Shown here: piece after piece, positions 20,408 to 33,592 of the stretch
How the letters are laid out: each line of letters starts with the position of its first letter
Numbering within the stretch: position 1 is the stretch's first letter
IMG/VR virus record: IMGVR_UViG_3300042346_001065
Coordinates: 1 to 49,881 of that record
Length of the DNA: 49,881 nucleotides
DNA from: a virus
Reading direction: 5' to 3' (one strand)
Program-made: the position numbers and the translations under genes
The notes under the pieces: generated by a model
Told to the model about the DNA's origin: nothing
The model's input: only the letters and a program-made list of their open reading frames with translations
Databases searched by the model: none

Positions 20408-22396
20408 ATGACCGCCCAATCATCCGAGACAACAAAAAAAGAAACCACCACAGAGATTGTGAATCGTTATAGAGAAGACTCTCGTGTCATGATGCAAGCG
20501 TTAGCGGAGAGTGCCGACGCAAGTTCGATGCGAAATCCTCTCCCTGTAACGGGAAGAATCCAGCCTTTCTCTCAACAGCAAGTAGAAAACTGTTTAGCAG
20601 ACGCGATCTTAAAACGAATAGCGTGGAGCCTCCCATCTTCGTCAACTCAAAAGATGTGGCAGTTATCCTTGGGAGATGATTTTTCTAGTAAGACGGGTTC
20701 TAAATTAGTCCGAGATTATTATGCCTATCACGAAAGATTGAAAACCATATCACAATTTAGAAAAGCATTGCAGTTCTCTCGCTCTCATGGTGGGACAGTT
20801 ATTATTCTCAAGATTAACGATGGAAGACATTATTCCGAACCTGTTGATGAAGGCAAGATTAAATCAATCTCTGGGTTAATCGTTCGTCACCGATGGCAAG
20901 TTGCTCCTTCGGTGAGAACGGCTGCTAGTATATTTGACCTTGATGACATTGAACATTATGAAATCCTAACAATTGACCAACAAATAAAACAAAAATTACT
21001 ATTTAACGGAACAAATTCCAAGCAGGATGATCGCCTGATTCATCGGTCAAGAATCCTCCGGTTTAATGGGGCATTAATGCCTGATGATTGGATGATTTCC
21101 TATAACAATGGATGGGGATTGAGTGTCTTTGACGAGGTTTGGAAATATTATAAAAACTATACAAATGGACTCAATGCAGTAGGCGAATTAATTAAAACCC
21201 AATCAGTTCTACAGCATTCTTTTGAAGGACTGCGGGAACTGATGATGGCATCTGATGAAGAAAGTATCGCAGCTATTAAGCAAACCATGAAATCAATCCG
21301 ACTAATGTTTGATCTATATGGCATGGTTCTCCACGACTCCCGTGAACAATTCAACTGGAATGCCCGCCCCGTCGTCGGGATGGATTCACTCGTGCAAGTA
21401 CAGAAGGATGGGGTAACAGGAGCCTCTGGGATGCCTCACACGATAGTTTGGGGAGAAAGCCCTGGGGGTTTGGGGCGTGATGGCAAGGAGACCCAAATCA
21501 ACTATGCTAACTCGGTGGCAGAGTACCAAGGAGAGAGCTTAGATCCTAGCGCAGCTATTCTTGATCGTTATATCTTCTTGGCTAAAGACGGCCCCACAAA
21601 AGGCAAAATCCCCGACAACTACCAGAGGCAGTACCCTTCTATCTTGAGGATGACCATCGAGGATCTCCGCTCTGGACGCTCATCTGATATTCAGGCATTG
21701 GCTTCAGGTATTCAAGCCGGATTCATCACGACAGATGAAGCTCGGACAGTGCCTTCTAACTCCGGTTGGTGGCCAGAGCTTAACCTTGATCAAAAAGCAT
21801 GGGAAGAAGCCAGGAAAAAAGCAGAAGAACAAGCAAACTTCCTTGGTGGTTTTGATATGGGAGCATTAGGAGGCGAGGAAGCTGCCCCACCCACTGAAGA
21901 ACCCGTCGAAGAAGAATCTATAACTCAAATGGACAGTGCTGTTTACACCCCAATAAAGCGGGTTCTTAATTGGCACGGGCTATCAATTGGGGTCACTCAC
22001 GACAAAGGGGATCTTCGCTATAACAAAACGATGAAGGTAGGGTATGGGCATATTAGACGCAGCTATGGACACGCGGAGGACGCAAAAGCAATCGACGTTT
22101 ATATCAAAAATCCAAACTCACCTAGTCTCTGGAAGGTTCGGCAACTCAACACAACAACAGGGGAGATTGACGAAACAAAGTATTTCTTGGGTTTTGATTC
22201 CCCCAAAGAAGTGCGCGATTGCTATTACTATCATGCCGGATTAGATCGTTTTGGAGGAGTGGAGAAGTGCGATCCTACGGAATTAAACCAATACCGCCAA
22301 GATGCAGAAGAATTGGAGGGAGTTAATGAAGTTTATCAAAATAAGATATTAACAGATGTAGCAAATAGAATCAATCAACAAACTCAATTAGATTAA
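20408..22396 (+). CDS. portal protein with C-terminal inorganic-pyrophosphatase-like domain
   Basis: 662 residues. Residues 1-490 look like a DUF1073-type portal: MRNPLPVTGRIQPFS, the clip/stem segment, GGLGRDGKETQINYANSV, and FITTDEARTVPSNSGWWPEL. After an acidic Pro/Glu linker, residues 517-640 (RVLNWHGLSIGVTHDKG, GYGHIRRSYGHAEDAKAIDVYI, FLGFDSPKEVRDCYYYH) match the InPase domain of phage polyvalent head proteins. The portal forms the packaging vertex; the extra domain may enter the cell with the DNA. Divergent from the terminase operon across 98 bases. Confidence 0.85.
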   Translation: MTAQSSETTKKETTTEIVNRYREDSRVMMQALAESADASSMRNPLPVTGRIQPFSQQQVENCLADAILKRIAWSLPSSSTQKMWQLSLGDDFSSKTGSKLVRDYYAYHERLKTISQFRKALQFSRSHGGTVIILKINDGRHYSEPVDEGKIKSISGLIVRHRWQVAPSVRTAASIFDLDDIEHYEILTIDQQIKQKLLFNGTNSKQDDRLIHRSRILRFNGALMPDDWMISYNNGWGLSVFDEVWKYYKNYTNGLNAVGELIKTQSVLQHSFEGLRELMMASDEESIAAIKQTMKSIRLMFDLYGMVLHDSREQFNWNARPVVGMDSLVQVQKDGVTGASGMPHTIVWGESPGGLGRDGKETQINYANSVAEYQGESLDPSAAILDRYIFLAKDGPTKGKIPDNYQRQYPSILRMTIEDLRSGRSSDIQALASGIQAGFITTDEARTVPSNSGWWPELNLDQKAWEEARKKAEEQANFLGGFDMGALGGEEAAPPTEEPVEEESITQMDSAVYTPIKRVLNWHGLSIGVTHDKGDLRYNKTMKVGYGHIRRSYGHAEDAKAIDVYIKNPNSPSLWKVRQLNTTTGEIDETKYFLGFDSPKEVRDCYYYHAGLDRFGGVEKCDPTELNQYRQDAEELEGVNEVYQNKILTDVANRINQQTQLD

Positions 22397-23628: not shown

Positions 23629-24717
23629 ATGGTCACCACCTTAAACCGTCAAAATCTCCTTCGCTTTGATGCTGTTCCTACCAAGGAACAGATGCGGTTG
23701 GCGATCGCTCAAACACTATCCCTCCCCTCAATTTATAATTCTCCAGTTATCATACTGGACTTTGAAGTGGGTGATGATGGTAAAATTACGGGGCGGTTTA
23801 AGGATGCTGATCGTCCTCGTGTGTTTAGCTTCGAGATTTTGGACGATATCCGTTTTAGCCCTTTTAAGTCTGGGCGACTGGACAATGAGGAGGAATGGGA
23901 GGATTTTTCCCTTGGTTATAGCTTTCGCTTTGATACACCCGGAGGGGCTAAAAAAAAGCCGCAGTGCGTGAAACCCACGTCTTATAATTGTGGTAAATCT
24001 TGCATAAATATTAAGAAAAATTGCAGGTGCAATCCCGATGATGCTCAGTCAAAAGATAGAATAGATAAATTAAAGTCTCTGGCGAAGGATTTTAAAAAGG
24101 GGCAAGAAGGGGGAGGAAAGCAGAAGGAATCAAAAGTTTCTGAATCAAAGGACAAGAAACTTTCTTACTCTAATTTTGAGAGTGACTTTGAAGACCTTTA
24201 TTTTGAGGAGAAAAGGAAACAAGAGTTAAAAGGTGTTGTAGCAATTAAACGCCGACAGATGTTAGATATTGCCGAAGGAAAGTACAATGTTCCCCGTGAA
24301 CAGTTAGAGGATTATTTCGAGAAGTTAAAAGATAATAAAAAAATATTCTCAGTAATAGAGAAAGGGGAAGAATTATTATCTTGGGTTGGAGGACAGACAC
24401 CCAAAAAGCAGGGAAAACAACCTAAAGCCAAATCTTCTAAAACAAAAGACTTAGTTGCAGGACAAAAAGCAATCAAGGAAAAACAGATATCTTATGCTAA
24501 ATTCGAGAAAGACTTTAAAGAATTCTATAACGAAGAAAAAAGAAAGCAGGAACTACAGGGGGTTGTAGCAATTAAACGCAATAAGTTGTTAGATGATTAT
24601 GCTAAAAAAAATGGGATTTCTCGACAGCAATTAGATAATCATTTTGAAAGTCTTAAAACCAATGGTAAGATATTCTCTGTCAAAGAGAAAGGGGAGGAGT
24701 TGTTTCAGTGGAACTAG
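23629..24717 (+). CDS. FKD/Cys effector-family protein with two winged-helix-like repeats
   Basis: 362 residues. Residues 10-108 are the FKD domain (QMRLAIAQTLSLPSIYNSPV, GKITGRFKDADRPRVFSFE, EEWEDFSLGYSFR). The Cys motif follows: C113, C121, C125, C132, with YNCGKSCIN. Two homologous units of about 78 residues come next (178-256 and 287-362), each with EEKRKQELxGVVAIKR, a Q-L-E/D-x-x-F-E-x-L helix and a K-IFSV-x-EKGEEL hairpin, resembling winged helices. No catalytic motif. It may bind nucleic acid or act as an adaptor in the virion. Confidence 0.75.
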   Translation: MVTTLNRQNLLRFDAVPTKEQMRLAIAQTLSLPSIYNSPVIILDFEVGDDGKITGRFKDADRPRVFSFEILDDIRFSPFKSGRLDNEEEWEDFSLGYSFRFDTPGGAKKKPQCVKPTSYNCGKSCINIKKNCRCNPDDAQSKDRIDKLKSLAKDFKKGQEGGGKQKESKVSESKDKKLSYSNFESDFEDLYFEEKRKQELKGVVAIKRRQMLDIAEGKYNVPREQLEDYFEKLKDNKKIFSVIEKGEELLSWVGGQTPKKQGKQPKAKSSKTKDLVAGQKAIKEKQISYAKFEKDFKEFYNEEKRKQELQGVVAIKRNKLLDDYAKKNGISRQQLDNHFESLKTNGKIFSVKEKGEELFQWN

Positions 24718-24785: not shown

Positions 24786-27017
24786 ATGGTCACAATTTCA
24801 AGTTATCAAAATCTCCTTCGCTTTGATGCTGCTCCTACGGAAGTGCAGATGAAACTTGGTATTTCTCAAGTTTTGTCGATGCCATTTGCCTACAACTCTC
24901 CGGTTATCGTTCTGGACTTTGAAGTAGGCAATAAAAACATCATCAAGGGACGGTTTAAGGATGCCATTAGATCCCGTGTTTTTGAGTTTGAGATTGGGGA
25001 TTCTATCACGTTCAAGCCGTTCACCTGGAGGCGAACGGATAGCGACGTTGACCCGATGGCGTGGGAAGACTTCTCTAAAGGGTATTGCTACCGATTCGAT
25101 GCAGTTAAGACCGTCAGAAAGGAAAAACCTAAGTGTGGCAATACCTCCTATAACTGCGGCAAAGCCTGCATTGGCTTAAACAAGAATTGCAAATCAGATC
25201 CCCCCGATAAACCGTCCCAGGAGAAAGTCGATAAACTCAGAGCCGCAGCAGGGGAGTTTAAAGCTGTTCAGGGCGATCCAACCAAGAAGCAAGAGGATAA
25301 TAAGTTAACGCCAAAACCACAGGAAGTTAAGGCGGTTAAGACCAAAACTGCTAAGGGCGCGATCGCTAAATCAGAAACACCACCAAAAACACCCAAGACA
25401 ACTAGACCCAAGGTAGGGACAAAGCAGTATGACGAATGGCTAGAAACCGAATCTCAAAAACTCAAGGGTAAAGATGGGGAATATGTAATTAAAACCCGTT
25501 CGGGGGATGAGACGGTCAAAGGAACCGTTTATGGCAATGGATTGGGGATTAATCCAAATAAAGGGTCTTTGTACAACACTCACAGCGTTACGCACATCGG
25601 CAGTGGCAGATCGTTGGGTGATTTTGATGATGAAGTTCAGGCTAAAAAGGCATTAGTTGAGTTGAACCGATCCGGCGTTAATTGGAGCGAACAAGACTTA
25701 ACAAAAATTCCAGGGATAGAGAAGAAAATAGTCAAAGTTAAGGGCTTGATAGATAATGCCAAAGACTCGGACTTAAGGGTTAAACGGGATGCTAAAAGGA
25801 AGGTGATAGAGGAAAAACGAGCTAAAGACGATGCCAAAATTGAGGCTGGTATGCAAAGGTTTAGAGAGGAAGAAGCTAAGAAAAAACAACAGGCTGAAAT
25901 AGACAGAAAAATACAAGAGGAAAAAAATAAGGTAGAGCGTGAAAAGCAAGTTGAGGCTATGAAAAAGATGGCAGAAGATCAAGCAAAAGTTTATCAAGAT
26001 TATGAGATCAATAGAACAAATCAACTGATCGGAGAATTGAAATCATCCTTTGATGTTAAGTCATTGGAGTCTGAAGTTAGCGTGCTGGAATCGAGGCTAA
26101 AGACGGAATCATCTCCCAAGGCAAAAAAAGAGTTAAACCAACGATTAAATAATGCAAACATCAAACTAAAGGAGGTTAAAACATTTTTATCTCAGGACAA
26201 ACTTGAAACCTATCCCGCTTTTTTGAAATCCAGAGTAAAGGGAATGGCTAATACTGTTGGGATTGAAAAAACCAGGGAGATTTTACAGGAGCAAATTGAC
26301 AATTACAAGAAACAAGTAAAGGAGGAGCCAAAGCAAAAAACAATAAAAGTTCAAGGGGAGCGATCGCAAGAACAAGAATCCCCTCTAATTCCGAAAGAAG
26401 AAATAGTTAAAGAGGCTCCTAAGCGAATTGGGGATGGAACCCAAAAAAGCTCCCCTCTTAATGCTCAGGAATACCACAAAATGATGGTTGAGAGAGGGAA
26501 TAATATCTCAATAGAAGAAGCTGAGGAAACTGTTAAATCAATCGTGTCGTGGAAACTTAGAAACGATGCCATAAGAGGAGATCAGCAACAAGGAAAGCCC
26601 AATAAAGATGCAGATAACATTGATAACTTTATCAAAAACTCTACACCTTATGAGGGAATGGTCGCTAGAGGGCTTAAGTTTTTCAGTAAAGAGGAAGCAG
26701 CAAACTTTATCAAAGGGGATGAGAATGGGATATTAAATAACCAGTCTGCTCATGCTTCATGGACTTCTGATTTTGATCAAGCTAAGAGGTTTGCTGATGT
26801 AGAGTCAAAAACAAATCCCTACTGGAAGGAATATTCTGAAAATCTTTATCCTGTGATTGTCCTTGCCAAAAATAAAACAGGTGTTCCAGCCCAAAATACA
26901 GGAGATGGATTACATAGTAACGAAGCCGAGGTTATTGTTTCAAAGAATACAAGGCATAAAGTTGTTAGGGTGATAGATAGAGATGGAATTATTTTAGTGG
27001 AAACCGAAGAAGTGTAA
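24786..27017 (+). CDS. FKD/Cys effector-family protein with ADP-ribosyltransferase domain
   Basis: 743 residues. FKD domain about 8-115 (IIKGRFKDAIRSRVFEFE), Cys motif KCGNTSYNCGKACIG, a 90-residue globular section (YVIKTRSGDETVKGTVYGNG...), a long charged coiled coil (about 330-500), then from about 559 an R-S-E class ADP-ribosyltransferase: R628 in VARGLKF, S658-W-T-S661 in AHASWTSDF, and E713-A-E715 in NEAEVIVSK. Such domains modify host proteins or nucleic acids with NAD+. The layout fits an injected phage effector. Substrate unknown. Confidence 0.85.
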   Translation: MVTISSYQNLLRFDAAPTEVQMKLGISQVLSMPFAYNSPVIVLDFEVGNKNIIKGRFKDAIRSRVFEFEIGDSITFKPFTWRRTDSDVDPMAWEDFSKGYCYRFDAVKTVRKEKPKCGNTSYNCGKACIGLNKNCKSDPPDKPSQEKVDKLRAAAGEFKAVQGDPTKKQEDNKLTPKPQEVKAVKTKTAKGAIAKSETPPKTPKTTRPKVGTKQYDEWLETESQKLKGKDGEYVIKTRSGDETVKGTVYGNGLGINPNKGSLYNTHSVTHIGSGRSLGDFDDEVQAKKALVELNRSGVNWSEQDLTKIPGIEKKIVKVKGLIDNAKDSDLRVKRDAKRKVIEEKRAKDDAKIEAGMQRFREEEAKKKQQAEIDRKIQEEKNKVEREKQVEAMKKMAEDQAKVYQDYEINRTNQLIGELKSSFDVKSLESEVSVLESRLKTESSPKAKKELNQRLNNANIKLKEVKTFLSQDKLETYPAFLKSRVKGMANTVGIEKTREILQEQIDNYKKQVKEEPKQKTIKVQGERSQEQESPLIPKEEIVKEAPKRIGDGTQKSSPLNAQEYHKMMVERGNNISIEEAEETVKSIVSWKLRNDAIRGDQQQGKPNKDADNIDNFIKNSTPYEGMVARGLKFFSKEEAANFIKGDENGILNNQSAHASWTSDFDQAKRFADVESKTNPYWKEYSENLYPVIVLAKNKTGVPAQNTGDGLHSNEAEVIVSKNTRHKVVRVIDRDGIILVETEEV

Positions 27018-28283: not shown

Positions 28284-31091
28284 ATGATTACAACTCCCGT
28301 CATCAAAGCAAACCAATCTAACATGGCTCCCACCGAAGTTCAGATGAAGTTAGCGATCGCGCAAGTCCTATCCCTTCCATTTGCCTACAACTCCCCCGTA
28401 ATTGTCGTTGATTTTGAGGCAGGTAACGGGAATGTGATCAAGGGTAGATTTAAGGATGCCTCCCGACCCCGTATATTTGAATTTAAGATTGATGACTCCA
28501 TAAGTTTTAAGTCATTTACCTGGAAAAGAATAGACAGCGCGGATATCGATCCAGTGGTGTGGGAAGAATTTTCTAAAGGGTACACCTATCGGTATGACGC
28601 AGTTAAAACCAAGAGGAAGGAAAAACCTAAGTGTGGCAATACCTCCTACAATTGTGGCAAAGCCTGTATTGGGTTGAATAAAAACTGCAAATCAGATATA
28701 CCGGATAAACCCTCCCAAGAAAAAGTCGATAAACTCAGAGCCGCAGCAGGGAAATTTAAAGCCGTTCAGGATGATCCAATCAAGAAGCAAGAAGATAATA
28801 AATTAACGCCAAAACCACCGGAAACAAAACCGACACTAGCGAACGAAGATAAAATGCGCGATACACTAAAGAAAGCTATCGCGGAAAATGAGTTGAATAA
28901 AAGTTTAGCAGAAACAGCTTATCAAAAATACCACCAGTATCAAAACGGACTAAAAAATGAAGCAGAAGGTTTATCATCTCGGTCTATCGCTAGTTTATAT
29001 CAAATCCCCCACGCCACTGCTGTAGCTAGAATTAACGGACTTAGAGAAGCTGTTGGACTAGGAGGGTCTAATGCTGTATCTGTTGACAAAGAATTAGGGG
29101 GAAGAATTAACGACCTTTTAAATAATGGGAAACAAATTAAAATTAATTCGTCAGGCGGTCAACTAAAAGATCGGAAAAAAGAACCAAGTCAAACAACAAT
29201 TAATGCTGACAAAAAATGGTCTGACTTTTTAGAATCTAAAAATGTTACAGAGAAAGGACTTAGAAAACTAGACCCTGAGACTAGAAAGAAAATTACAGAA
29301 GAATTTGAAAATACTCGGATTGAAGAAAGGGCTCAGGAGTCAAGCAAAAGGAAAGGTCTATCACTACCTGAAGACCCCAAACCATCCCCAAATTCAACAG
29401 GGGTTAAGGGTGCGGGGGGTAAGACACTTGACCTAAAAGATTTGTGGCAACAGACAGCCGACGCTGCTTATTCTAAAAATAAAGATGGGGTCTCAAAAAA
29501 TCTTGAGCAATGGAAAGAAGTTGTTAAAAAACTAGAGTCAGGGGAGGGAATTTCTAAAGATGTTAACTTAAACGAATACGAAAAGTTGATGGATAATTTA
29601 GAAAGAAAATTAGTCCTTAACCCAAAAGATCCGTCTAATGTCGAGTTTAAAAAAATTACTGGGTCTATTTATAGAACTCTTGACAAGGCTGTAAGATACG
29701 ATCCGTTAACTCAGGAAGATTTAGAAAAAGCTCACCCCAACTTTAGACCCATCATGCAACGGATGAAAAAAACCGTTACCAAGGTAAACGAATTATCCGG
29801 TAAAAAACAGCAATTACAAAAGGAATTAGACACATTAAAACACAGACAATCTTATAACGAGCTTATAGTCAAATCTAATTCAAGGCAATTTCGTGAAACG
29901 GCGATTGACAATAATTATAATGAGCTTAGGCTCCTTACGATGCGAAACCCGAATGACATGATAGAAGTCAGAAATCCAGTATCTAATCTCCCAGAAAGGA
30001 CAGTATCCATCCCGACAAGGATTAATGAGATCAACAAAGATATTAGAGATTTGGCAGACGATAAAAAGGCTGTGGAGTCTTCAGATCGTGCTAAGGGCGA
30101 AATAGCTAAATTACAGACCAAAATTAAAGATGCTGAAAGTCGGGCAACTTCCTTAGATGGTGAAATTAAGGCGTTAAGAGAATCGAGAGGAACGGGATCT
30201 GTTTTATCAGAACCTAAGTCAGCCCCTATTCCTGCTGTAGCACAAAGAGCGATCGCTAAAACCAAGACTGACAAACCCCCTGTTAAATCGGTTGATCAAC
30301 AATACAAGGATATTATTGCCAGTTCTAAAGATCCAAAAGGAACAGAGGAGGCTTTGTCATCGGCACTCAGAGGCGGTATAGGTGACTTCGAGAGAAAGAA
30401 TTATAACGAGTATTTAACTGCGATAGCTTCTGGGACAGTCCCAAAAGGAATGGGAGACTATTATCAAAAGCAAATTGATAAATATAAGCCCGTTATTGAT
30501 GCCGAAAACTTCATAAACGAGAGACGGCAAAAGGCAAAAGCAGGTGATTATGAAACAGAATCAGAAGCAGGGGTTTATATTCTTGATAAACTAAAACAAA
30601 AAGGCTACAAAGAGCATGAATATTATGATAGTCCAGACTATAAAATGGATTATGACAAATTAAAAACCGTAATGAAGTCTATGGAATTACCTCCCCCTCT
30701 GTCTGGTAATATTCCTAGTAAGGAATTAAAACAGACACTAACTCAGGGGGATAAATTGCTAGTTAAAGAAAGCACTTATTCTATGATGGGAGGAAGTTCC
30801 CCTGCGGGTTATCGAATTGTTGACGGTGGCGAAGTTCTAAAAGTTAATGTCAAGAATGTTAAAACAAGAGTCCAGGGCGAGTATATGGGGAAACCTTATA
30901 AAAATGAGCCATCCCTTGCCCTTGATACAGTTACCCACGTCATCCGAGATGGTAAACGTTACAAAGTAGATGATTCTGATAGTTCCCCTAACGACTTAAA
31001 GCCTGAAGTTACTCAACCCCAGAAGGCAGTAAAACAAAAGTCAATAAAACAAAAGGCGATAAAAGTTCAAGAGGTGCGATCGCAAGGTTAG
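28284..31091 (+). CDS. very long FKD/Cys effector-family protein with coiled coils
   Basis: 935 residues. FKD domain about 13-115 (IKGRFKDASRPRIFEFK), Cys motif KCGNTSYNCGKACIG almost identical to the gene at 24786. A possible helix-turn-helix follows (GLSSRSIASLYQIPHATAVARI), then long charged helices and coiled coils to about 640. The last 120 residues (GDKLLVKESTYSMMGG, GYRIVDGGEVLKVNVKNVK) form a beta-rich domain. It stops just after a linker IKVQEVRSQ that in the 24786 protein leads into the ADP-ribosyltransferase, suggesting loss of a C-terminal domain. No catalytic motif recognised. Confidence 0.7.
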   Translation: MITTPVIKANQSNMAPTEVQMKLAIAQVLSLPFAYNSPVIVVDFEAGNGNVIKGRFKDASRPRIFEFKIDDSISFKSFTWKRIDSADIDPVVWEEFSKGYTYRYDAVKTKRKEKPKCGNTSYNCGKACIGLNKNCKSDIPDKPSQEKVDKLRAAAGKFKAVQDDPIKKQEDNKLTPKPPETKPTLANEDKMRDTLKKAIAENELNKSLAETAYQKYHQYQNGLKNEAEGLSSRSIASLYQIPHATAVARINGLREAVGLGGSNAVSVDKELGGRINDLLNNGKQIKINSSGGQLKDRKKEPSQTTINADKKWSDFLESKNVTEKGLRKLDPETRKKITEEFENTRIEERAQESSKRKGLSLPEDPKPSPNSTGVKGAGGKTLDLKDLWQQTADAAYSKNKDGVSKNLEQWKEVVKKLESGEGISKDVNLNEYEKLMDNLERKLVLNPKDPSNVEFKKITGSIYRTLDKAVRYDPLTQEDLEKAHPNFRPIMQRMKKTVTKVNELSGKKQQLQKELDTLKHRQSYNELIVKSNSRQFRETAIDNNYNELRLLTMRNPNDMIEVRNPVSNLPERTVSIPTRINEINKDIRDLADDKKAVESSDRAKGEIAKLQTKIKDAESRATSLDGEIKALRESRGTGSVLSEPKSAPIPAVAQRAIAKTKTDKPPVKSVDQQYKDIIASSKDPKGTEEALSSALRGGIGDFERKNYNEYLTAIASGTVPKGMGDYYQKQIDKYKPVIDAENFINERRQKAKAGDYETESEAGVYILDKLKQKGYKEHEYYDSPDYKMDYDKLKTVMKSMELPPPLSGNIPSKELKQTLTQGDKLLVKESTYSMMGGSSPAGYRIVDGGEVLKVNVKNVKTRVQGEYMGKPYKNEPSLALDTVTHVIRDGKRYKVDDSDSSPNDLKPEVTQPQKAVKQKSIKQKAIKVQEVRSQG

Positions 31092-32074: not shown

Positions 32075-33592
32075 ATGGTTGAAATCAGGCTTGATGCTCC
32101 AGCTAAATTTAGGGTAATCAGAACTGATGATGGTCGCCTCCATTGTGAGGGGTCTTTTTGTCGTGATGGGGTGTTGGAATATCGTCAGCCTGATGGCTCC
32201 ATAGTCCACGAACTCAGGAGACCGGAAACCAATGCAGAACTAGCCACAGTGGAGAGTTTTAAGCTCCTCCCCCTGGTAATTGAACATCCCCATGTTGGGC
32301 TTCTTAATAGCGAAAGTTATAAGGATTACGCAGTCGGGATGACTGATTCTTCTGCTTATTACAACAAGGCTGAAGGGGTGATCGAAGGCTTGGTGTCGTT
32401 TTTTGATGCTAAAGCGATCGCCCTAATTGATTCAAGGGAAAAGGAACAGTTGTCTGCGGGATATACCTGCGATATCAAACAAGGGGCAGGGGTATGGAAT
32501 GGTCAACACTACGACAGAGAACAGATTAATGTTCGTGCTAACCATTTGGCTTTAACGAGCCGAGGAAGGGCAGGAGAAGATGCCCGTCTCCGATTAGATA
32601 GTGCTGCGGGGATTGGGCAAGCTATTGTAGGGCAAGCTGTTGAAAACCCTAGTAACCCCAACAAAACCAAAGATAATGGAGATAATGAACAGCGCATGGC
32701 AATAATTAGATGCGATGGAGTCGAATATTCAGGAATCCCTGAAGTTTTCGCTTCTATTAGTGGTACTCGATTCCGTGAATTAAAAGAATTAAAGGAACGC
32801 CACGATTCGCTTGTTACACGGTTTGACGCTACGATTCGGGAGAATCGGAAGCTAGAAGCCGCACAAGAGAACTACCAGTTTCGGTTAGATAACCTGGAAA
32901 TCATTGTGGACAATGCTGACAATGTCCTTGGTGAGTTAGGTTATTACCGGAACGACATGGGGCAATACGTCCGTGTTGATGGGGGCAAAAAGAAAATGAT
33001 GTCTTTTGTTCCCGAAGATGAAGAAATGATGGAAGATGAGGACAATGAAGATGAAGAAATGATGGAAGATGAGGATGTTATGGAAGAAAAAGAAACCATG
33101 ACTTCCAGAAAGAAAAAAAAGTCCAAACCTCGTGCTGATGGCGACGATGAAGGCGAGAGTGATTACCGGGGTGATTCAATCGGGGATCTGTTGGCGATTT
33201 GGAAGGAAGCCGACAGTTTGTTACCAGGGTTCTCTGACACTCGGTTTGATAGTGGCTTCTCCACTAGCGATATCAAGCGCACTTTGTTGGCTGAAATCGA
33301 ACCCAATATGGATTTGACGTTCCGATCCGATTCTTATGTAGACGGGGTTTTTGCCTACATTCAGGAGAATTATGATTCCTCCCCCACCGATCCAGGTGAC
33401 GAAGAAGAAGGGGATGAGGAGGAGGAAGACGATGGAGACTCGGAGGAGTTTTCCCATCGCCTTGATTCGGTACTCAAAAGACCTGCTCAATCTACCTACG
33501 GAGATGAACTCACCGAATGGGAAAGACGACGGGTAGATGCCTATAAGCAGCCTTTAACGATAGGAAAAACACGCACGGGGTTTACTAGATAA
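32075..33592 (+). CDS. DUF2213 prohead protease / scaffold protein
   Basis: 505 residues. The N-terminal 180 residues carry the DUF2213 pattern: RTDDGRLHCEGSFCRDGVLEY, PLVIEHPHVGLLN, GMTDSSAYY, LSAGYTCDIKQG and VRANHLALTSRGRAGEDARL, seen in phage capsid maturation proteases. The remainder is helical and highly charged, including an acidic stretch with an internal 33-bp duplication (33014-33075), as expected of a scaffold. It is followed by cement and capsid genes in the usual order. The stop codon overlaps the next start. Confidence 0.85.
   Translation: MVEIRLDAPAKFRVIRTDDGRLHCEGSFCRDGVLEYRQPDGSIVHELRRPETNAELATVESFKLLPLVIEHPHVGLLNSESYKDYAVGMTDSSAYYNKAEGVIEGLVSFFDAKAIALIDSREKEQLSAGYTCDIKQGAGVWNGQHYDREQINVRANHLALTSRGRAGEDARLRLDSAAGIGQAIVGQAVENPSNPNKTKDNGDNEQRMAIIRCDGVEYSGIPEVFASISGTRFRELKELKERHDSLVTRFDATIRENRKLEAAQENYQFRLDNLEIIVDNADNVLGELGYYRNDMGQYVRVDGGKKKMMSFVPEDEEMMEDEDNEDEEMMEDEDVMEEKETMTSRKKKKSKPRADGDDEGESDYRGDSIGDLLAIWKEADSLLPGFSDTRFDSGFSTSDIKRTLLAEIEPNMDLTFRSDSYVDGVFAYIQENYDSSPTDPGDEEEGDEEEEDDGDSEEFSHRLDSVLKRPAQSTYGDELTEWERRRVDAYKQPLTIGKTRTGFTR

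Follow-up and report, generated by a model that had tools for sequence, protein, structure and literature searches.

Why does a phage portal protein, the ring through which DNA passes into and out of the head, carry a domain of the inorganic pyrophosphatase (InPase) family at its C-terminus, and does that domain still hydrolyse pyrophosphate (PPi)? The question is raised by a single open reading frame (ORF) in the window, the whole stretch of 49,881 nucleotides analysed here, which belongs to a cyanobacterial virus (IMG/VR record IMGVR_UViG_3300042346_001065, positions 1-49,881). The ORF is unbroken and encodes 662 residues; its parts are placed in Table 1.

A portal protein fused to an InPase domain

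A fusion of portal and InPase domain had been proposed in the first-pass annotation and is borne out by two profile matches within one ORF. Using hmmscan, Phage_portal_3 (PF06381) is found at residues 67-416 (E 2.4e-44; 151.9 bits against a cut-off of 33.8), and InPase (PF18823) at residues 507-630 (E 5.2e-26; 91.5 bits, above the family cut-off of 26.8). The second match agrees with the InPase likeness previously seen at residues 517-640, and nearly the whole of it lies in the span 21940-22396 that had been annotated, beginning slightly upstream of it, at 21926.

Table 1. Features of the portal ORF and of a neighbouring gene, in window coordinates.
Feature	Position	Strand	Basis
Portal protein with C-terminal InPase-like domain, orthologue of PaV-LD ORF057R	20408..22396	+	ORF, Pfam, 99.1% identity
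Portal domain (PF06381), aa 67-416	20606..21655	+	Pfam; aa 50-459 of the full-length model match solved portals
Linker, aa 475-513, pLDDT <50 in the full-length model	21830..21946	+	Predicted model
InPase (PF18823) domain, aa 507-630	21926..22297	+	Pfam, predicted fold
Thr530-His531; Thr at the PPase Glu20 position, His invariant in the clade	21995..22000	+	Alignment
D558-A-K560-A-I-D563, altered D-x-D-P-x-D signature	22079..22096	+	Alignment
E589 and K591, near-invariant in the InPase family	22172..22180	+	Alignment
DUF2213 (PF09979) protein, candidate head maturation protease	32075..33592	+	Pfam; putative function

The window portal shares 99.1% amino acid identity with the portal of Planktothrix phage PaV-LD, whose record holds the identical fusion architecture as a single gene. 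Fifteen IMG/VR contigs likewise carry the fused ORF, open across 666 or 673 codons (L010-L024; 16 loci when the incomplete L025 is included). An assembly join or artefact is therefore ruled out.

Portal-InPase fusion is an already known, published phage architecture. Iyer et al. (2017), in the accessible part of their paper, report that InPase domains occur in polyvalent proteins and also as fusions with portals, with BcepF1.124 as the named example, and propose that they are injected and act on PPi or nucleotide-like substrates (PMC5512222). The wider interest of the locus lies in this background, in which packaging of such fusions and their delivery at infection have been proposed.

Residues at the catalytic columns

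Window residues were mapped by profile-profile alignment of the InPase family, first with two pyrophosphatases (PPases) and then with 22. In what we take to be the usual E. coli PPase numbering, Thr530 falls at Glu20, Tyr546 at Tyr55, Asp558 at Asp65, Lys560 at Asp67 and Asp563 at Asp70; the E20 column is less certain than the D67 column. Asp67 presumably corresponds to yeast Asp117 and occupies the third position of the D-x-D-P-x-D signature. This middle Asp, the general base of active type I PPases, is Lys560 in the window, with D65 and D70 retained. Cellular type I PPases (E. coli Ppa, yeast IPP1) share the predicted fold and the equivalents of Y55, D65 and D70, but have both E20 and the general base D67, the two residues replaced in the window. 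The first-pass annotation proposed to check for the catalytic residues in an alignment, and an intact catalytic site is not supported: Y55, D65 and D70 are kept, but E20 is Thr and the general base is Lys, in the window and in its clade. The InPase family is described as having four acidic active-site residues, which the available text gives without numbers (PMC5512222); the window departs from this pattern with Thr at E20 and Lys at D67.

The role of the replaced base is documented in cellular enzymes. In yeast, Asp117 and two metals are reported, in the text available, to lower the pKa of the attacking water (PMC11210485), and the accessible account of mouse PPA1 records no detectable activity for the D117A mutant (PMC3633968). 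By analogy with such PPase mutants, the change of Glu20 to Thr and Asp67 to Lys would most likely have abolished PPi hydrolysis.

The replacement is confined to part of the family. The E20/D67 pair was read in 103 distinct domains, a count that leaves out L025 (a fragment without the motif) and L059 (a weak hit under the Pfam cut-off, with D and N at the two columns): the pair is E/D in 73, E/E in 10, T/K in 16, Q/M in two, E/N in one and E/Q in one. E20 is accompanied by D or E at 67 in 83 of the 103, and the 16 T/K rows are the window and its kin. The columns of R537, Y55, D65, D70 and E589 are invariant in 103/103, and that of K591 is Lys in 102/103. The two exchanged columns change jointly: wherever E20 is missing, in 18 rows, position 67 is not acidic either. 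Portal fusions account for 17 of these rows, the exception being the non-portal ORF of L047. Joint replacement by fixed non-acidic residues in the T/K clade, with the other columns stable, suggests that PPi hydrolysis is not the sole purpose of such portal domains. A search of a paper collection for InPase domains on phage portals yielded a single study, that of Iyer et al. (2017), and the T/K variant did not turn up in the papers searched.

By eye, R537, E589 and K591 resemble PPase R43, D102 and K104. Profile alignment did not place them on these residues, even with 22 PPases, and the extent of the remaining ligand site is therefore unsure.

Portals with both acids are nonetheless common among the fusions collected. 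The portal of Burkholderia phage BcepF1 has the same layout as that of the window, a portal and a C-terminal InPase domain, both matched by HMMs, but keeps E20, D65, D67 and D70, the first and third of which are T and K in the window. Portal-fused rows, defined by a match to a purpose-built Phage_portal_3-type HMM with the addition of L056 (a Mu-type portal recognised by Pfam), make up 46 of the 103; among the 57 non-portal rows, 16 have an ORF open at the 5' end, so that an upstream portal is possible, and other portal families may be missed. Both acids are kept in 29 of the 46, including Pantoea phage Kyle, BcepF1, Pbunavirus LMA2 and, from cyanobacterial assemblies, L053 and L056. Of 276 relatives of intact portals the best 80 were retained, so that the number of intact rows does not represent a frequency. 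An enzymatic role is therefore plausible for the family at large.

These data bear on the view of the first-pass annotation, which Iyer et al. also raise among their proposals for the family, that the window protein is an active inorganic pyrophosphatase, present in the virion or injected with the DNA. The PF18823 match and the published proposal (PMC5512222) speak for such an enzyme, as do the two acids kept in the proteobacterial phage portals of Kyle, BcepF1 and Pbunavirus LMA2, but the window itself has Lys for D67 and Thr for E20, and the mouse D117A mutant has no detectable activity. We consider the idea rather improbable for the window protein, where the support for an injected, working pyrophosphatase is poor, and plausible for intact family members.

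Predicted fold and place in the virion

The InPase domain was modelled with AlphaFold from a 42-row alignment. The model has a mean pLDDT of 79.7, a value of at least 90 being reached by 89 of its 164 residues, and its predicted core is confident. Compared with the PDB by VIA-align, all 50 of the matches listed are inorganic pyrophosphatases, with Z scores of 5.7-7.4 (below 8), rmsd of 3.1-5.6 and 99-133 residues aligned; the domain is accordingly one of predicted type I PPase fold. Foldseek alone gave no PPase match to the domain model at E <= 0.001, and a PDB profile search matched solved PPases at the signature motif, but only sub-significantly, with E no better than 0.15. In hhalign, a 16-residue stretch of E. 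coli Ppa between the first two strands is unmatched in the window, a gap that other family members partly fill. According to the part of the paper available, the polyvalent type of InPase lacks the beta-hairpin insert found between strands 1 and 2 of solved type I PPases (PMC5512222).

With a mean pLDDT of 63.5, the full-length model is weak, and the placement of the domains relative to one another was for this reason left unused. Residues 50-459 of this model resemble the solved portals of Pam3 (Z 19.5), Pseudomonas phage Pa193 (Z 19.3) and E217 (Z 18.9), and all 50 matches listed are portal or neck entries, the best at Z 19.5. The stretch of residues 475-513, of low pLDDT (Table 1), is probably a flexible tether.

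Where this tether would lead can be judged from two solved relatives, the gp19 portals of Pa193 and E217 (PDB 9B41 and 8FVH), which share the portal fold with the window. The accessible descriptions report that the C-terminal barrel of the E217 portal projects into the head (PMC10329688), and that residues 94-528 of the Pa193 portal were modelled, with 529-765 lacking discernible density (PMC11042391). The Pa193 portal carries an InPase domain after the barrel, at residues 630-752 (E 3.2e-48), within this density-free stretch; it differs from the window in keeping E20, D65, D67 and D70. The direction of the E217 barrel and the position of the Pa193 domain together point to the window domain being most likely inside the head, hanging on a flexible tether within the capsid. 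Exposure at the packaging vertex, which had been suggested for the domain, loses ground on the same homology. Judged from the E217 and Pa193 structures, the window portal presumably forms a dodecameric ring at the capsid vertex.

The portal of Aphanizomenon phage vB_AphaS-CL131 was detected in purified virions by LC-MS/MS, according to the available report (PMC6293099). Cleavage of the portal's C-terminal tail by the window's DUF2213 protein is possible, given that in Aeromonas phage Gekk3-15 a member of this family carries the annotation 'hypothetical head maturation protein'.

Conservation, spread and possible roles of the domain

The T/K rows form one side of a branch with support of 100/99, and do so also when the swapped columns are removed from the tree. 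Within the clade, Thr, His, Lys, Asp65 and Asp70 are invariant in 9/9 rows, some of them near copies, with a lowest pairwise identity of 39.5%. The CL131 portal (ORF012) belongs to the same T/K variant and differs from the window portal in being 1393 aa long, with a spacer about 120 aa longer ahead of the InPase domain and with a Mu F domain after it. Its InPase part is 53.2% identical to that of the window (59/111), against 29.1% (105/361) for the portal core. The value of dN/dS is 0.026 in the domain and 0.041 in the portal part for the window versus L021 (the domain value from only 17 synonymous and two non-synonymous changes), 0.111 and 0.145 for CL131 versus L040, and 0.074 and 0.144 for L044 versus L040. 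The InPase domain is under purifying selection. Because it is both better conserved than the portal and constrained in this way (dN/dS 0.03-0.11), a decaying pseudodomain is ruled out. The higher identity of the domain could also stem from domain exchange between phages. In net charge, the domains of 12 T/K portal rows have a median of +1, compared with -4 for six cyanophage rows of the E/E form and -6 for 79 others; the shift of the T/K domains is small and is in part the swap itself.

With two catalytic residues exchanged and the exchange conserved in relatives, the domain is probably not an ordinary pyrophosphatase; since Asp65, Asp70 and Tyr55 persist but the general base does not, the simplest reading is that it binds without turning PPi over. 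Our best explanation, to which we give roughly even confidence, is that a PPase-fold domain tethered inside the head has lost PPi hydrolysis and been kept as a pseudo-enzyme or phosphate-ligand-binding module. A type I PPase-fold domain would be linked flexibly to each of the portal subunits (presumably 12), on the inner side of the head. Tyr55, Asp65 and Asp70, together with R537, E589 and K591, would preserve binding of a phosphate ligand, most likely the role of the domain; this ligand, held at the portal within the full head, could be PPi, a nucleotide or the DNA backbone.

The Lys or the new His may support other chemistry, so that 'inactive' may be too strong a word. The boldest of the readings builds on these two residues: the Thr-His and Lys pocket would form a retooled enzyme that performs another phosphoryl reaction, in the head or after injection. 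The invariance of the replacements (TH and K in 9/9 clade rows), the retention of D65 and D70, the purifying selection and the nucleotide-like substrates proposed for related InPase domains in the accessible text of Iyer et al. (PMC5512222) are all consistent with it. A role in binding only, however, accounts for the same conservation, and in L047, a member of the clade, the D588 and K591 columns hold Ala and Asp. Also against it, no enzyme with this residue set is known to us. We regard retooling, for example towards a nucleotide signal of host defence, as unlikely. Only tentatively can it be proposed, for the portals of the cyanophage clade, that a reprogrammed pocket, its other conserved residues kept, has taken on a new task in phosphoryl chemistry or nucleotide binding at the portal's inner mouth, either sensing DNA or PPi while the head is full or, at ejection, attacking a nucleotide used in defence.

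The distribution of the fusion raises a further alternative to a ligand-binding module. InPase is fused to portals of more than one family, both Phage_portal_3 and, in L056, the Mu type, and the portal label changes on the tree at least four times on well-supported branches and seven times in the best tree. The InPase match is absent from 60 of 98 related portal ORFs (10 of these incomplete) and present in 38. T and K are found in 37 of the 38, many of which are the same contigs again, and the remaining one, L175, ends before the K column. The set examined comprised 98 new loci of two scans, with L040 and L146, loci already numbered earlier being left out; the scan with the swapped motif removed from its query gave 25 loci, and the portal-based scan kept the best 80 of 458. 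These two scans served as checks on two others, which used swapped-motif or window-derived patterns and whose counts are consequently not frequencies. The portal of S-CBS4 has a different C-terminal region. As many related portals are without InPase and some have another C-terminal region, the C-terminus of these portals behaves as an optional slot for accessory domains.

Such a slot would suit a structural appendage, a domain that fills space or aids portal assembly and whose pocket has no ligand, and the partial mapping of the remaining ligand site agrees with this. Yet Y55, D65, D70 and three further charged columns are invariant or nearly so, and both the low dN/dS of the domain and its conservation above the level of the portal also count against the appendage, to which we give a small chance of being correct. 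For the benefit of the domain to a portal, the intact forms of Kyle and Pa193 and the swapped forms of PaV-LD and CL131 make a natural pair.

A family search of genomes matched PF18823 in four of 386 cyanobacterial genomes, three of them above the cut-off, which fits the statement, in the available text of Iyer et al., that polyvalent proteins are few in cyanobacteria (PMC5512222). With the Kyle InPase domain as query, tblastn gave matches in 469 of 50,697 phage records, not all of them portal-fused.

Several further loci deserve mention. The T/K-form InPase of L047 (L047:3180-4373) lies in a 154-kb viral contig. The CL131 portal (L002:1123-5304) is a single chain of portal, InPase and minor head protein, and its longer stretch between portal and InPase has no Pfam match. 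Two portal-InPase genes, L057 and L060, both in the cyanobacterial genome G186, carry Gln in the E20 column and Met in that of D67, perhaps a second swapped form of separate origin. T/K and Q/M stand apart in the best tree; an AU test fails to reject a single T/K and Q/M clade (p 0.294), and two independent losses are therefore unproven.

Between the portal and capsid genes of the window lie three ORFs on the plus strand (23629-24717, 24786-27017 and 28284-31091) that match the 'minor head protein' family phrog_16619. They have a common N-terminal part (43-63% identity over ~170-250 aa) and differ at their C-termini, and ORF61 and ORF65 of PaV-LD are mosaics of the same pieces; the three look like swappable virion cargo. 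The C-terminus of the second ORF (~26412-27017, +) shows by eye an R..S..E-x-E pattern that we take to be ADP-ribosyltransferase-like, a likeness that found no support in Pfam or PDB sequence searches; in PaV-LD the relative of this part is a separate gene, ORF62. In Nodularia phage 2AV2_15 (L003:2125-3618), an E/E InPase is combined with Hva1_TUDOR in a separate gene near the portal gene.
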